A model generated the notes under the pieces. The model made no database searches. It had not been told where the DNA came from and saw nothing but the letters and a program-made list of their open reading frames with translations. The position numbers and the translations under genes were made by a program. Shown here piece after piece: positions 13,145 through 19,126 of a DNA stretch of 64,000 bases. Source of the stretch: an uncultured Pelagibacteraceae bacterium (GTDB taxonomy: Bacteria; Pseudomonadota; Alphaproteobacteria; Pelagibacterales; Pelagibacteraceae). The number at the start of each line of letters is the position of its first letter. Within the stretch, counting starts at the first letter, position 1. The stretch is from positions 43,688 to 107,687 of the forward strand of contig CABZSS010000002.1 of assembly GCA_902528375.1 (NCBI GenBank), given 5' to 3'.

Positions 13145-13827
13145 AAAAAATTTTAATTAAATGCCTATTATTAGTAGTTTTATTTCAAATTGAAGTGGTT
13201 GCTGAAGAAAAGAATTATCATAAAGAGCTAATAACTGATTGGTCTAGAATATTTCCAGATAAAAATAGAAATGCTGCTGGACCTAAATTTTTTAAGTATA
13301 TTATAGACAAAGAAAATACTTATAAAGATTTCATCGAGTATAATAAGTTATTTTGTGCTGTTTCTGGATCATTAATTGATCCTGATAGTGACTCGGAGTT
13401 TTTATTTGTTAAAGAGAGTAAATCAAATAGTAAAATCTGTGGCAATTATTACAGATGTTGTGTTCCATGCTCTTGTGATGTCATGAAGTATTCGGAAGTT
13501 CAAAAGATGAAATATAAATTTACAGATGGTCTAAAAGAATTTTACGTTATAACAATTAAAAATCCATGTAACAAAACTGATTTTCCAAATAGAGTAAACA
13601 AGAATTATTTTTGTAATGGGAAAAAAATCAATAGTAATCAAGTATATAATCTAGATAACAGAATAGTTATAGGTTTATTGCACAACGGAAGACTTTGTAA
13701 AAAAGATGATATAAATTTGGTCAAAAGTCATCAAATTACTGGTCAATATTGTGAATTGAGAAATAATACACCCCTTGAGAAATTAGATGCTGGTATGGGT
13801 GATATTTTTATTAAGCTTGCAAGATAA
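13141..13827 (+). CDS. Secreted Cys-rich protein of unknown function
   Basis: Signal peptide [37 protein letters not shown] cluster; overlaps upstream ORF stop by 4 nt. Confidence 0.6.
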   Translation: MKKILIKCLLLVVLFQIEVVAEEKNYHKELITDWSRIFPDKNRNAAGPKFFKYIIDKENTYKDFIEYNKLFCAVSGSLIDPDSDSEFLFVKESKSNSKICGNYYRCCVPCSCDVMKYSEVQKMKYKFTDGLKEFYVITIKNPCNKTDFPNRVNKNYFCNGKKINSNQVYNLDNRIVIGLLHNGRLCKKDDINLVKSHQITGQYCELRNNTPLEKLDAGMGDIFIKLAR

Positions 13828-14962
13828 ATTTTGATATTATTTTAGGAATATAATTTTTAAAATTAAAAAAACCTTTATTACAATATTGCCAGGAATACTC
13901 ATCGAGCTTTCTGTACAAAAAGTTAAGTTTAATGTTATTTGAATTTAAATAATCTAAATTTTCACCAACTGAGGGATATAAACCTATTATATTTTCACCT
14001 ATTCTTTTGACTTCACTTACATCTATAATTTCACAATCAATCGATTGATCTTTTAATCTTTGCTCCTGATCTTTAGTTAAATGTGACTTAAATTTAATAA
14101 CTTTTTCACTAAGTTTTATGGATCTATTTTCATTTTTATTTGAAACCAAATAGACTTTTTTAAATTTATTATCTTTAAAATCAGTATTTTCAAGAGAGAG
14201 ATTGTTTTCAAAAACTAATAAGTTATTTTGACTAATATCTTGAGGATTAGCAAAATTTTGTTTTATGATTGAGTATGTCTTTTCAGAAACTTTTGGTGGC
14301 GCGTTTTCATTCAATTTAATATTGTTGAATCTATTATTTGTAAATTTTTTGATATTCCATTCACTTGCTAAATAATGTTTTCCTTGAGTTTGTACTCCGG
14401 CAACCCATCTCCATCCAAGTGTATTTGATGCAGCATCACCATCATAGAGATGTTGCATAAAAAATTCTGCACCTAGTTGCCAAGGTAAATTTAATGTGAA
14501 TATCCAGATACTTGCAAACCACATTCTCGTGTGATTATGAAGATAATTGTTTTCTTTTAGTTCTTTAACCCATTCATTAAAGCATTCGATATTAGTATTT
14601 CCCTCTATCGCATTTAAGTATACTTTATTTTCCACGAATTTTTTTCTTATGCCGTTCAAGCTTACTAAATAGTCAGTCCATACGTTTGGTCTTAACTCAA
14701 GCCAACCCTTCCAATAAGTTCTCCAAAGAACCTCCTGTATAAACTTTTCATTTTTTGAAAAGGAAAACTTCGCAAGTGACTTTTTGATAATTTCAATTTC
14801 ATTAAGAACTCCATGAGTTACAAAAGGCGATAAGCAGGAGACGTTATCTCTTTTATCAGGACCAAAATCAAAGTTTCTCAATCTTGAATACTCAGACAAA
14901 TTACTTTCGATAAATTTATCTAAATTTTTTAAAGCAGTTTTTCTTGAAGGTTCAAAATTCAT
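13811..14962 (-). CDS. Photolyase FAD-binding-domain protein with atypical C-terminal extension
   Basis: FIQEVLWRTYWKGWLELRP, NNYLHNHTRMWFASIWIFTLNLPWQLGAEFFMQHLYDGDAASNTLGWRWVAG photolyase FAD domain; no N-terminal antenna domain precedes it. Confidence 0.85.
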   Translation of the reverse strand: MNFEPSRKTALKNLDKFIESNLSEYSRLRNFDFGPDKRDNVSCLSPFVTHGVLNEIEIIKKSLAKFSFSKNEKFIQEVLWRTYWKGWLELRPNVWTDYLVSLNGIRKKFVENKVYLNAIEGNTNIECFNEWVKELKENNYLHNHTRMWFASIWIFTLNLPWQLGAEFFMQHLYDGDAASNTLGWRWVAGVQTQGKHYLASEWNIKKFTNNRFNNIKLNENAPPKVSEKTYSIIKQNFANPQDISQNNLLVFENNLSLENTDFKDNKFKKVYLVSNKNENRSIKLSEKVIKFKSHLTKDQEQRLKDQSIDCEIIDVSEVKRIGENIIGLYPSVGENLDYLNSNNIKLNFLYRKLDEYSWQYCNKGFFNFKNYIPKIISKFILQA

Positions 14963-15013
14963 AACAAGGCCAAGAGATATATAATTGTTTTAATTCAATC
15001 TCCAGGCCTTGTT
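14963..15013. repeat. Inverted repeat AACAAGGCC(aa)GAGAT ... ATCTC(ca)GGCCTTGTT
   Basis: Perfect 9-bp arms 14963-14971 / 15005-15013 plus inner 5-bp arms 14974-14978 / 14998-15002. Confidence 0.85.
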
Positions 15014-15021
15014 GACGCATA

Positions 15022-15720
15022 TTATATTGCTATATCTTGATGATAATTTTCATATCCACTTGCTTCTCTTAAATAATTGCAATGTGAACAACTATTTCCT
15101 GCCGCAGGAATTTTATCTTGTGACAGGAGCGCTGTTACTTCTCTTAAAAATTCAAAGAAAGCTTCATCATTCCTCGGTATTTCTTGCCAACTAACACTAT
15201 TTTTAAAATAGTAATCTTTATTCTCTTTAAGAAGTTTAGTTGGTTCTACAACAAAAAGACCAAGTCTGCTTACAGGTGCAAGAGCTGGTTTTCCCTCTGC
15301 AGCGTTCTCTAAACATAAAGCATAAGAATGTAATTGTCTCGAATACCTTTCAACATTAGAGTCTTTCACACTTGATGTTTTAAAGTCAACAACTCCAAAA
15401 CTTTTATCATCAAACCCAAGAACAGTATCGCTCTTACCTTTTAGATAAATGCTATTTCCTGTTCTACGGTCCTTGAAAGTTTTAGATTGCAACCAACGGT
15501 CTCCAAAAATTACTTTTCCAGCAGGTAATGATGGATCAATATCTCTTGGAGATTTTCCCTCAAAGTGATCTTTCATTATGCCGTCTATTTTAATAAAGAT
15601 GGTTGGCATGATACCCCTAGGTCTTGATAGACCTTCTTTAACTTTAAGATAGAAACATCGAGGACATTCCGAATAAAGAAATGTTAAGTCACTCGGGCTT
15701 AGTTTAAACAATTTGCTCAT
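15022..15720 (-). CDS. PD-(D/E)XK superfamily nuclease (Cas4/RecB-like) with N- and C-terminal CxxC motifs
   Basis: SECPRCFYLK near N-terminus, GKSDTVLGFDDKSFGVVDFKTS catalytic-like core, YSRQLHSYALCLE, C-terminal CSHCNYL. Confidence 0.8.
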   Translation of the reverse strand: MSKLFKLSPSDLTFLYSECPRCFYLKVKEGLSRPRGIMPTIFIKIDGIMKDHFEGKSPRDIDPSLPAGKVIFGDRWLQSKTFKDRRTGNSIYLKGKSDTVLGFDDKSFGVVDFKTSSVKDSNVERYSRQLHSYALCLENAAEGKPALAPVSRLGLFVVEPTKLLKENKDYYFKNSVSWQEIPRNDEAFFEFLREVTALLSQDKIPAAGNSCSHCNYLREASGYENYHQDIAI

Positions 15721-15734
15721 AAATATATATTGAT

Positions 15735-15778
15735 TTTAAACTCCCAGCAGCATTACTGCTGCTGGGCATGAGTTTAAA
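15735..15778 (-). terminator. Large hairpin, probable terminator of the GIY-YIG gene
   Basis: TTTAAACT-CCCAGCAGC-ATTACT-GCTGCTGGG-catg-AGTTTAAA; 9-bp GC-rich stem plus 8-bp outer arms; directly after the 15774 stop on the minus strand. Confidence 0.82.
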
Positions 15779-16502
15779 TAACCAACCCTCCTTCAGTTTT
15801 AAGCACTGGTGGAAGCACTTTGTTATATTTAGGAAAAGTTCCATACTTATCTTTGAAAGAACAAATATGTTTCCTCTCTATCTTAAACCTCTCCGCTTTA
15901 TCATCGATTATCGAATATTGAATACAATCAAAATCCAATTTATCTTTGATATGCTGAGAAGCTCTTAGCCGTAGATTGTTTGTTGAACCAATTTCAACAA
16001 CGTGGCCCTCTTTAAGATATCTATAGACCCCCCCTTTTTTAGGAAGCTCTTTGTAACTTTGAACCTTATTTTCAAAATTTGCTTCAATAGTTACTTGATA
16101 GATATTGTCCTGTATTTGCTTTACAAACAACCTTCTCTCAGATCTGCTAGATGAGTTACGCATTGCATCAAATCTAGGAACTCTATCAATGAGTTCCTTG
16201 CATGAAACGAAGAAACGAGGTGTTCCACCATTGTTTCTTTGCGCATGAGTAAGAGGTAATGTTGTACCTCCATTCTCAATTTCCTCATTAGTAAGAAGAA
16301 TGAACAAATTGTTTGCTGTGCTATAGTCATCTCCTTTGATATCTAAAGCAAGCTTACAACGCTTATATCCACTCTTGATTATTTTTCTGCTGAAAGCCGT
16401 ATTAAAACTAAGACCTTGCTTCAGCACCACTATTTGAGGCTCATCCATTAAAAGATGAGATTGCCTTTTAAAAAAAGTAAGATTATTTATATCTACTGAC
16501 AT
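15774..16502 (-). CDS. Unknown N-terminal region fused to GIY-YIG-like nuclease domain
   Basis: C-terminal GGVYRYLKEGHVVEIGSTNNLRLRASQH...FKIERKHICSFKDKYGTFPKYNKV fits the GIY-YIG pattern (GVY, EIGSTxNLxxRxxxH, E, N). Confidence 0.68.
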   Translation of the reverse strand: MSVDINNLTFFKRQSHLLMDEPQIVVLKQGLSFNTAFSRKIIKSGYKRCKLALDIKGDDYSTANNLFILLTNEEIENGGTTLPLTHAQRNNGGTPRFFVSCKELIDRVPRFDAMRNSSSRSERRLFVKQIQDNIYQVTIEANFENKVQSYKELPKKGGVYRYLKEGHVVEIGSTNNLRLRASQHIKDKLDFDCIQYSIIDDKAERFKIERKHICSFKDKYGTFPKYNKVLPPVLKTEGGLVI

Positions 16503-16825
16503 AAACCCTCCTTTTTCATAACCTCAGAAACATCAATTGCTATAAAGCTAATCTGAACATCGCCATCAAGCTTATCAGTCAACTTTCTTACAATAGGTGG
16601 AGTTGCAGCAATGCACTCAATTTTAGCGACAAATGTTGCCTCTATCATTTCAGCTATTTGCTTAACCCATTCCTGAGGTCTTTGATATTCATCCTTTGTC
16701 AAAGTAATAGATCTTTTAACAACGTTAAGAATACCTGTTGTTTCTTCACCTGTTTTTATTTTTACTGGAACAGGTAATAACTCCAGATTACTTGGTTTTT
16801 CCATTTTCTTCATGGTTTTCTCCAA
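16493..16825 (-). CDS. Hypothetical protein, 110 aa
   Basis: ORF overlapping the GIY-YIG ORF start by 10 nt, suggesting coupling; no recognised domain. Confidence 0.6.
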   Translation of the reverse strand: MEKTMKKMEKPSNLELLPVPVKIKTGEETTGILNVVKRSITLTKDEYQRPQEWVKQIAEMIEATFVAKIECIAATPPIVRKLTDKLDGDVQISFIAIDVSEVMKKEGLCQ

Positions 16826-16840
16826 AGTGCCAAAAACTTT

Positions 16841-16890
16841 TTTTCAAAGACTAAGTTTTTGAACATTAATTTAATGTCTTGCTTTGAAAA
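16841..16890. repeat. Nested inverted repeats upstream of the 16825 gene
   Basis: TTTTCAAAG (16841-16849) / CTTTGAAAA (16882-16890) enclosing palindrome ACATTAATTTAATGT (16863-16877). Confidence 0.75.
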
Positions 16891-16936
16891 TAATGAATGG
16901 ATTTTTAAAATTCTTTCAAAAAACTGGTTTATATTT

Positions 16937-17776
16937 TTATAAAATATCGCAGTTTTTTAAAAAATTTTCTATTTTTTCATAACAGTTGTTATAAAGGTCT
17001 GTCTCGTTAGATATACTTTGAGGAATAGTGAGAGTTTCTTGCTCTTTCTCGCCAAAGTTTAAAAAATTAAAACTTCTAAATTGTATAAATATTTTGATAA
17101 TGCTGTTTTTCTTAGTTGGATATTCACGGAAATCAAAGTCAAAAGGAACTAAAAAATTTCTAGATCCAGCGAAAACATCAATTTTTTCTTTGTTTAGTAA
17201 TTCAAAAGCTTTTCTTGAAACTTGAAAAGAGCGAACATAATGGGATCTATCAACAAATTTTACTCCATCAACCGAATATTGTCTGCCCAAACAATCAGCA
17301 ATTATAGCGGCATTATTTGTAGAACTTTCATTAATATTTTTACTAATATTAATATTCAGAGACCTGTGGAAATTAGGTAAAAAGTAAACATTTTTATTAT
17401 TTTTGAATCGTTCTTTGATAATTTCTTTTGATATTTCAAAACTTCTTTCCAATCTTTTTTCTGCATTATGCCATAGTTGATCCCACAAATGATCAAATGT
17501 CTCAAACTTAATTAAATCTATTTCTCGATCTAAATTATCTTGTACTTTTAGATCTTTATATTCAGGTAGTTTGATAAATCCTTGATCATATAGCTCGGAT
17601 AATAGTTCGTTAAATTTATGACTAGTAATGTCGTCATTCTCTTTTTTTACCTTGTATAAATATGGGCGGTTATGTTTTGAGATACCCTTTTCATCTGATG
17701 TAAGGTCTTCTTTGTTTTCGATTAATTTATTTAGTTGTTTAACTATTTTAAGAGGTGCATATTTTAAGCTATCCAT
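16937..17776 (-). CDS. Hypothetical protein, 279 aa
   Basis: Long minus-strand ORF at local AT-rich composition; no recognised domain. Confidence 0.65.
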   Translation of the reverse strand: MDSLKYAPLKIVKQLNKLIENKEDLTSDEKGISKHNRPYLYKVKKENDDITSHKFNELLSELYDQGFIKLPEYKDLKVQDNLDREIDLIKFETFDHLWDQLWHNAEKRLERSFEISKEIIKERFKNNKNVYFLPNFHRSLNINISKNINESSTNNAAIIADCLGRQYSVDGVKFVDRSHYVRSFQVSRKAFELLNKEKIDVFAGSRNFLVPFDFDFREYPTKKNSIIKIFIQFRSFNFLNFGEKEQETLTIPQSISNETDLYNNCYEKIENFLKNCDIL

Positions 17777-17813
17777 CTTAATTATTTAGTAATTAGCTAT
17801 TATATTTCAATGA

Positions 17814-17948
17814 CTATTTTACTCTAAACTTTTTTGAAGCTTTAAAACCTGCCATGTAGTGCTTTGCAAGAGATTTAGGCCTTTTATGACCTCTTCTTTT
17901 ATATTCTGCTGTTACAGATGCTAACGTAGGTTGTTTCTTTTTCTTCAT
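17814..17948 (-). CDS. Small basic protein, 44 aa
   Basis: Manual translation: MKKKKQPTLASVTAEYKRRGHKRPKSLAKHYMAGFKASKKFRVK*; ATGA overlap with the argG stop (17945-17948). Confidence 0.65.
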   Translation of the reverse strand: MKKKKQPTLASVTAEYKRRGHKRPKSLAKHYMAGFKASKKFRVK

Positions 17949-19126
17949 AACTTATTCTTATGAAATTTTATAAATCTTTCAACGTTTGATTTGTTAAAAG
18001 TTTTATTCTCTTCAAAAGAAACTTTTTTCATTGAGTAAGCACTGCTTTTTGTCACTCTCGATTGAATTGTAACATTACCTTTGTAAAGTTTAAGCTTAAT
18101 ACTTCCATTTACCTTGGTTCTTTTTAGATCCACTATTTTTTGTAATTTAAATCTTTCTTTTGAGAACCAATAACCGTTATAAATTAATTCCGCATATCTT
18201 GGCATAATAGAATCTTTTTTATGCATAGTATCTTTATCTAATGTTACAGACTCCATTGCTCTATGAGCAATTAAAAGCAATGTTCCACCTGGTGTTTCAT
18301 AAACTCCTCGTGATTTAATTCCGATAAATCTGTTTTCAACTAAATCAACTCTTCCAACTCCATTTTTTCCACCGATTTGATTTAATTTTTCTAAAAGTTT
18401 TTCTGGATTTAATTTTTTTCCGTTAATACTAACCGGATCACTGTTTTTGAAACCAATGGAAACATATGTGGGTTTATTAGGTGCCTTTTCCGGTGAAGTT
18501 GTTCTTTGAAAAATAAATTCCGGGGCTGAATTTTTTGGATTTTCTAAAACTTTACCTTCAGTTGATGTGTGAAATAAATTATCGTCTACTGAAAAAGGCG
18601 GTGCACCTTTTTTATCTTTTGGAATTGAGATGTTATGTTTTTTTGCATAATTAATTAAATCTGTTCTTGATTTTAATTTCCAGATTCTCCAAGGAGCTAT
18701 CACCTTTATTTTTGGGCCAAAGTAATGATATCCAAGTTCAAATCTCACCTGATCATTTCCTTTACCTGTTGAACCATGCGAAACAGCGAAAGCTTTAAAT
18801 TTTTTTGCGACCTTAATTTGATCTTTTGCGATTAATGGTCTCGCAATTGATGTCCCAAGAAGGTAAACCCCTTCGTAAATTGCATGACCTCTAATCATTG
18901 GGAAGACATATTCTTTTACAAACGTATTTTTTAAATTGTTAATAATTATTTTTTTAACACCAAGTTTTTTTGCGTTTTTAACAATTTTCTTTCTGTCCAT
19001 TTCTTGACCAATGTCTGCAGTGTAGGCAATTACTTCGCTATCGTAATTTTCCTGTAACCATTTTAAAATAATAGATGTATCAAGTCCGCCTGAGTAGGCT
19101 AAAACAATTTTTTTGTTTTTTTTCAT
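17945..19126 (-). CDS. argG: Argininosuccinate synthase
   Basis: VLAYSGGLDTSIILKWL, HGSTGKGNDQVRFELGY motifs. Confidence 0.97.
   Translation of the reverse strand: MKKNKKIVLAYSGGLDTSIILKWLQENYDSEVIAYTADIGQEMDRKKIVKNAKKLGVKKIIINNLKNTFVKEYVFPMIRGHAIYEGVYLLGTSIARPLIAKDQIKVAKKFKAFAVSHGSTGKGNDQVRFELGYHYFGPKIKVIAPWRIWKLKSRTDLINYAKKHNISIPKDKKGAPPFSVDDNLFHTSTEGKVLENPKNSAPEFIFQRTTSPEKAPNKPTYVSIGFKNSDPVSINGKKLNPEKLLEKLNQIGGKNGVGRVDLVENRFIGIKSRGVYETPGGTLLLIAHRAMESVTLDKDTMHKKDSIMPRYAELIYNGYWFSKERFKLQKIVDLKRTKVNGSIKLKLYKGNVTIQSRVTKSSAYSMKKVSFEENKTFNKSNVERFIKFHKNKL

Follow-up and report, generated by a model that had tools for sequence, protein, structure and literature searches.

The fold of the UvrC N-terminal domain and of T4 endonuclease II recurs in the C-terminal domain of a nuclease that is common to the SAR11 cassettes described here; this UvrC-type domain is weak by sequence and is recognized by structure (Foldseek probability 1.00 to UvrC GIY-YIG, best E 2.5e-3), and it has an hmmsearch match to endonuclease II (2wsh, 2e-4). 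The catalytic Y, R, E, and N of GIY-YIG nucleases are shared, but the cassette protein differs by a novel N-terminal domain of about 145 residues, by the frequent loss of the first Tyr of the YIG motif, and by its association with a dedicated small partner and a leader. Cas4 and the RecB-family Fe-S nucleases share RecB motifs and four invariant cysteines with a second nuclease of the cassette, but the cysteines of the latter are arranged 2+2, its score of 24 bits lies below the cut-off of 65 bits of the Cas4 model TIGR00372, and no cas-like ORF is found in the insert or the adjoining ORFs. HerA-NurA and other HerA-nuclease defence systems are linked to the cassette by a distant GIY homologue between NurA and HerA, whereas neither an ATPase nor a helicase is encoded in the cassette itself. 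A pseudoknot RNA upstream of a potentially toxic gene is a feature of the type III toxin–antitoxin RNAs and of the tisB toxin mRNA that is controlled by a pseudoknot (PMC7708055). The cassette differs from these by a single, sequence-variable predicted pseudoknot that directly adjoins the ribosome-binding site of a nuclease operon with two or three genes, with no tandem RNA repeats, and we do not class it as a type III system, as the pseudoknot is single and the nuclease is of the GIY-YIG and not of the ToxN-type RNase kind. Both the protein family and the RNA leader are absent from the libraries searched, and no paper on the cassette was found in a literature search whose scope excludes most subscription journals and all preprints.

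The window, the 64,000-nt stretch of DNA analyzed here, comes from an 865-kb SAR11 genome of the Pelagibacteraceae that is 68.5% complete (G000), and its relevant features are listed in Table 1. We propose that the cassette is a modular SAR11 nuclease system that has not been described before and that may act as an anti-phage defence operon, a reading to which we give about even credence on the basis of sequence comparisons. Its layout is that of a variable regulator-like gene, a leader predicted to form a pseudoknot, a small protein, a GIY-YIG nuclease, and a facultative last gene, which encodes a RecB/Cas4-like nuclease in the window.

Table 1. Insert, flanking genes, and leader elements in the window, and sites of the cassettes in SAR11 chromosomes.
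Feature	Position	Strand	Remarks
Photolyase-like gene	13811–14962		flank of insert
Whole insert	14963–17944	−	between argG and photolyase gene
Hairpin abutting photolyase start codon	14963–15013	−	16-nt arms, 88% complementary, fold z −5.6
RecB/Cas4-like PD-(D/E)XK nuclease gene	15022–15720	−	232 aa; PDDEXK_1
Strong GC-rich hairpin	15730–15780	−	at GIY stop, before second nuclease gene; inverted repeat 15735–15778, fold z −5.9
GIY-YIG nuclease gene	15774–16502	−	242 aa; novel N-terminal domain 1–145 and C-terminal GIY-YIG domain
Small protein gene	16493–16813	−	106 aa; precedes GIY gene in 18/18 cassettes
Leader RNA, predicted H-type pseudoknot	16814–16893	−	about 80 nt; pseudoknot just upstream of small-gene ribosome-binding site
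Leader strand a	16882–16890	−
Leader hairpin	16862–16878	−
Leader strand b	16853–16862	−
Leader strand a'	16841–16849	−
Leader strand b'	16830–16839	−
GGAG	about 16820–16824	−
Variable regulator-like gene	16937–17776	−	279 aa; swapped block in G201: 16894–17814
44-aa basic ORF	17814–17948	−	MKKKKQPTLASV...; start overlaps argG stop
argG	17945–19126		flank of insert
argG/photolyase site			window, L083, L085
Site beside second photolyase-like gene			L088, L131
recA/tolC site			L028–L031, L082, L130, L142
fabI/pnp site			L086, L129, L136
trmE/mnmG site			L087, L089, L140

The insert and its genes

A gap of only 10–15 nt separates argG from the photolyase gene in ten relatives, and therefore the whole interval of about 3.0 kb between the two genes in the window represents an insert; such an empty site in close relatives had been proposed as a check in the initial annotation. 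The same annotation described a compact unit of three minus-strand genes, and all three are real, but the unit is larger than that: a regulator-like gene and a 44-aa ORF had been missed, which together with the leader, the small gene, the GIY-YIG gene, and the PD-(D/E)XK gene make up the content of the insert. The 44-aa ORF, which has no match in Pfam, is retained in all three argG-site cassettes and is missing from the empty sites. The insert contains no structural, integrase, or lysis gene, and a methyltransferase partner, as restriction–modification would demand, was seen neither in the insert nor in the other cassettes read. The name of the photolyase is supported by Pfam, and argG, recA, tolC, fabI, pnp, trmE, and mnmG were named by inspection of the protein sequences. 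Seven other relatives (L096, L098, L100–L103, L117) carry a different two-gene insert between argG and the photolyase gene, which encodes a protein of 152–167 aa and a 126-aa PsiE family protein; the gap is an insertion hotspot.

The GIY-YIG-like protein was confirmed by its AF2 model (pLDDT 83) together with the UvrC match mentioned above, and no structural match was found by Foldseek for its N-terminal domain. Residues Y160, R180, E209, and N227 are invariant in 14 sequences. The position of the first Tyr of the YIG motif is Glu170 in the window protein and also Glu in the other argG-site members, Arg in several recA-site members, and Tyr in most others, and because of this replacement by Glu or Arg, GIY catalysis might be altered. 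The small gene indeed overlaps the GIY gene, by 10 nt, and its product belongs to no known family; within the ORF 16493–16825, the ATG at 16813 behind the GGAG is a likelier start than the TTG at 16825. Its AF2 model (pLDDT 70) has a beta-alpha-beta-beta-beta arrangement, and a PDB fold search with this model gave no significant match. The PD-(D/E)XK nuclease, finally, matches Pfam PDDEXK_1 with an E-value of 4.7e-13 (50.1 bits, cut-off 22), its RecB-like motifs D98, D112-x-K114, and Q129-x3-Y133 and the cysteines C19, C22, C211, and C214 are all invariant, and its best PDB sequence match is 4ic1, a Sulfolobus Cas4.

Two other observations of the initial annotation had to be adjusted. A higher GC content was noted, and the counts of 28/60 (15241–15300) and 22/60 (15481–15540) are exact, but the neighbouring line (17401–17460) has 13/60 and the excess of whole genes is modest (0.346–0.351 versus a mean of 0.308, sd 0.035, in 65 ORFs; z about 1.1–1.2, ranks 8–11), with a raised third-position GC only in the small and GIY genes (z about 2.3–2.4); the higher GC is weak evidence of acquisition. 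The structured repeats that had been reported for all gaps exist in all three of them, but they are three different kinds of element, namely a conserved, putatively translational leader, a hairpin behind the GIY gene that most cassettes share, and, ahead of the photolyase gene, a hairpin specific to this locus. The position of the second is occupied in nearly all members, but not in L088; the third has an identical sequence in L083, and L085 has another hairpin there.

Distribution and exchange of cassette parts

The core of leader, small gene, and GIY gene was found in 18 cassettes, all of them in SAR11 and at five chromosomal sites, and the cassette is present in a few per cent of SAR11; at recA/tolC, about 20 relatives have an empty site. 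A profile of the GIY protein recovered 16 full-length members from 397 genomes of the order, with UvrC accounting for most of the remaining matches, and a profile of the N-terminal domain recovered eight members, three of them new, from 399 genomes of the genus, and nothing but the window genome from 385 genomes sampled across the class. Twelve loci, all in Pelagibacteraceae, came from a scan of 84,980 species genomes, which reaches close relatives only. Four more GIY homologues (L032, L033, L084, L090) have neither small gene nor leader, and two of these, L033:8488–9150 and L084:7612–8274, lie alone between fabI and pnp, the site of L086, L129, and L136.

The slot behind the GIY gene is variable. 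The RecB-like nuclease occupies it in 5 of the 18 cassettes, a short DUF4177-like gene (E 0.009, below cut-off) in most recA-site cassettes, and elsewhere it holds an acetyltransferase-like gene (L129) or is empty. The DUF4177-like gene, of 57–67 aa in L028–L030, L082, and L142, is missing from empty recA/tolC sites and is therefore part of those inserts. In other surroundings and without a GIY gene, the RecB-like family was also found in about 30 of 197 genomes. In the SAR11 islands L034–L047, the RecB/Cas4-like family with four cysteines lies beside other small genes (the 160-aa c5 family, the 98-aa c8, the 94-aa c24, and the RHH-like c23), and this family is apparently a separate multi-context nuclease. 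The IMG/VR ‘viral’ contig L079 (7269–8657) combines the RecB-like gene with a c5-like neighbour, an arrangement that recurs in genomic islands of SAR11, and this contig may be host DNA.

Pairwise comparisons revealed how the cassettes change. The window and L083, which carries the nearest relative of its cassette, are 95.6% identical at the DNA level over 13836–16893 and 93.7% identical from 17815, with no similarity between these blocks, and therefore the regulator alone has been replaced; the two regulators share 25.7% of their amino acids. The dS values of the RecB-like (0.096), GIY (0.092), and small genes (0.047), with dN near 0, are far below those of the flanking photolyase (0.44) and argG (0.34) genes, and the cassette has therefore been shared more recently than its surroundings. 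In L028/L029, the GIY proteins are identical and regulator, leader, and small gene are replaced; in L030/L142, L086/L129, and L088/L131, the replacement covers regulator and leader, and its breakpoint lies near the start codon of the small gene. The replaced blocks are sharp-edged in the pairs compared, with a regulator identity of about 25% in four pairs and 35% in L029/L082, and with GIY proteins that are 77–100% identical. These alignments show replacement of the control half of the cassette and purifying selection on its nuclease half. A helix-turn-helix is supported only in type-B regulators, by a match to Pfam HTH_3 (E 1.3e-3) that does not reach the curated cut-off, and we do not claim homology of type-A regulators, the window's type, and type-B regulators, because their profile comparison gave no significance. 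A frameshift interrupts the regulator gene of L031 (256–1394), which points to a pseudogene, a sequencing error, or a programmed shift. Promoter matches are at chance level.

In the GIY tree, L136 from the fabI site lies inside the recA-site clade with a support of 100/100, which shows movement of the cassette between sites. Together with the empty sites, the five insertion sites, and the low cassette dS, this one clear site change supports the suspected horizontal acquisition. Homologous recombination accounts for the swaps but not for the first insertions, and there is no integrase to account for the movement.

A predicted pseudoknot upstream of the small gene

The inverted repeat 16841–16890 (TTTTCAAAG/CTTTGAAAA) has a weak fold alone (z −1.85) and is significant only when compared with relatives; it is predicted to form one helix of an H-type pseudoknot. 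The cassette leaders have two crossing sets of paired strands, the last of which is near or overlaps the ribosome-binding site: L030 pairs GGCTGCAGAC with GTCTGCAGCC and GGTAGGT with ACCTACC, and L089 pairs CCTGAGGGC with GCCCTCAGG and ATTCGG with CCGAAT. Between L088 (GCAACACCCAGA/TCTGGGTGTTGC) and L131 (GGTAAGCTCGGA/TCCGAGCTTACC), the helix is wholly rewritten, and the nuclease and small proteins around it are 77–97% identical. Since MAFFT leader alignments did not align the helices, tests of self versus cross pairing were chosen. In 12 relatives, the paired strands vary in sequence with their complementarity retained, the mean score of the 3' strand being 21.7 with its own upstream region and 13.3 with those of others (permutation p = 5e-6); in the leaders of the recA, fabI, and trmE sites, the pseudoknot helix gave p = 5e-6 and the first hairpin (P1) p = 8e-4. 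Crossing-helix scores of 11 leaders, several of which are non-significant singly, were compared with dinucleotide shuffles and gave a Fisher p of 6.5e-8. The leaders of L136, L140, and L142 fit the topology by eye, but their shuffle p values are only 0.04, 0.23, and 0.21, the L140 leader having been cut by the ribosome-binding-site rule used in this test, and therefore their support for the model is weak. No family of Rfam 15 reaches its gathering score with the leader. A switch of the window leader, with CTTTGAAAA and the ribosome-binding site CTTTGGAGA as alternative pairing partners of TTTTCAAAG, is attractive, but we do not claim it, as it is not retained in L085.

We infer that the leader acts in RNA, as a translational switch. 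The regulator and the paired strands are both fast-varying, and three of six pairs show a joint replacement of the two that breaks off near the start codon of the small gene, as would be expected if the strands were DNA operators for the variable regulator and not an RNA leader. We nevertheless regard such operators as rather unlikely, as the leader is retained between the window and L083 despite the full replacement of the regulator, and the crossing topology, the spacing of 30–80 nt, and the fixed position by the ribosome-binding site suit RNA better. The window/L083 homology block starts at 16893, beside the first pseudoknot strand, so that the leader can accompany the nuclease genes upon regulator change. 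It is a distinctly improbable idea that the leader, besides being a translational switch, is a functional RNA partner, a variable pseudoknot that is diversified by exchange and that joins small protein and GIY nuclease in an RNA-inhibited or RNA-programmed complex.

Candidate functions of the cassette

Of the functions considered in the initial annotation, a defence system is plausible, on indirect grounds. We consider defence the most likely role, with addiction and homing as its main rivals, because of a NurA-GIY-HerA relative, the sporadic presence, the exchange, and the two nuclease folds, and the fast turnover of the regulator was also counted toward it. The relative is the GIY homologue of L032 in genome G074, which is flanked by NurA (Pfam E 5e-6) and HerA (PADLOC E 4e-48). 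An AAA_15 (OLD-like) ATPase is encoded upstream, and it is possible that the region (L032:3202–11242) is a HerA-NurA-GIY defence locus of SAR11; the homologue is distant and belongs to another subfamily than the cassette GIY. The PADLOC check that had been suggested found no system that fits the insert: the matches were Cas4-like only, for the second nuclease, with nothing at E 0.01 or better for the GIY or small proteins and E 1e-3 or weaker for the regulators.

In such a defence operon, the regulator would keep expression low or respond to infection, and the leader would form a pseudoknot that, with its 3' strand next to the ribosome-binding site, holds back translation of the small and GIY genes as long as it is neither displaced nor bound. 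As its partner, the small protein would have the GIY nuclease, which would itself be translated from the overlapping start. The GIY nuclease would cut invading DNA, the RecB-like nuclease, where present, would degrade the cut ends, and regulator turnover could reflect an arms race or the avoidance of cross-regulation.

A toxin–antitoxin or addiction module, in which a toxic GIY-YIG nuclease is held in check by either the small protein or the leader RNA, the element is maintained because its loss kills, and defence is secondary or absent, would explain that the small gene lies upstream and overlaps the nuclease gene, that the leader suggests tight translational control, that insertions are sporadic and intergenic, and that no known defence system matches. 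We consider it doubtful, since wholesale exchange of small gene and regulator next to an identical GIY (L028/L029) is odd for a dedicated pair, and the GIY gene stands alone, with neither small gene nor leader, in L033 and L084. Free-standing GIY-YIG homing enzymes are known and set a precedent for a selfish element whose two nucleases cut the empty site, so that repair copies the cassette in; a content of nucleases only, precise intergenic insertions, and movement between sites agree with this. Yet at least five unrelated target sites are involved, the regulator and leader are unexpected for a homing gene, and it is the control half and not the nuclease half that turns over, which makes homing quite unlikely. 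A phage remnant, another candidate of the initial annotation, is very improbable: the PD-(D/E)XK protein matches phrog_31195 and has distant relatives on viral contigs, but no GIY relative was found in 50,697 phage records, 72,556 plasmid records, or IMG/VR, and phage genes of the structural, integrase, or lysis kind are lacking in the insert. Equally far-fetched is a housekeeping repair operon linked to photolyase: two type-A sites adjoin photolyase-like genes, but most relatives lack the cassette at the site and thirteen cassettes lie at recA/tolC, fabI/pnp, or trmE/mnmG.

In an analysis of 172 Ca. Pelagibacter genomes with DefenseFinder, no more than 19 gave a match, in all cases to restriction–modification (PMC11066056), and therefore systems that have not yet been described are to be expected in this group. 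SAR11 are among the most abundant cells of the sea and are heavily infected, yet almost no defence genes have been detected in them (PMC11066056). If our reading is true, the cassette would be a concrete and testable candidate for a SAR11-specific immunity, and it would exemplify an effector that stays fixed under exchangeable control.
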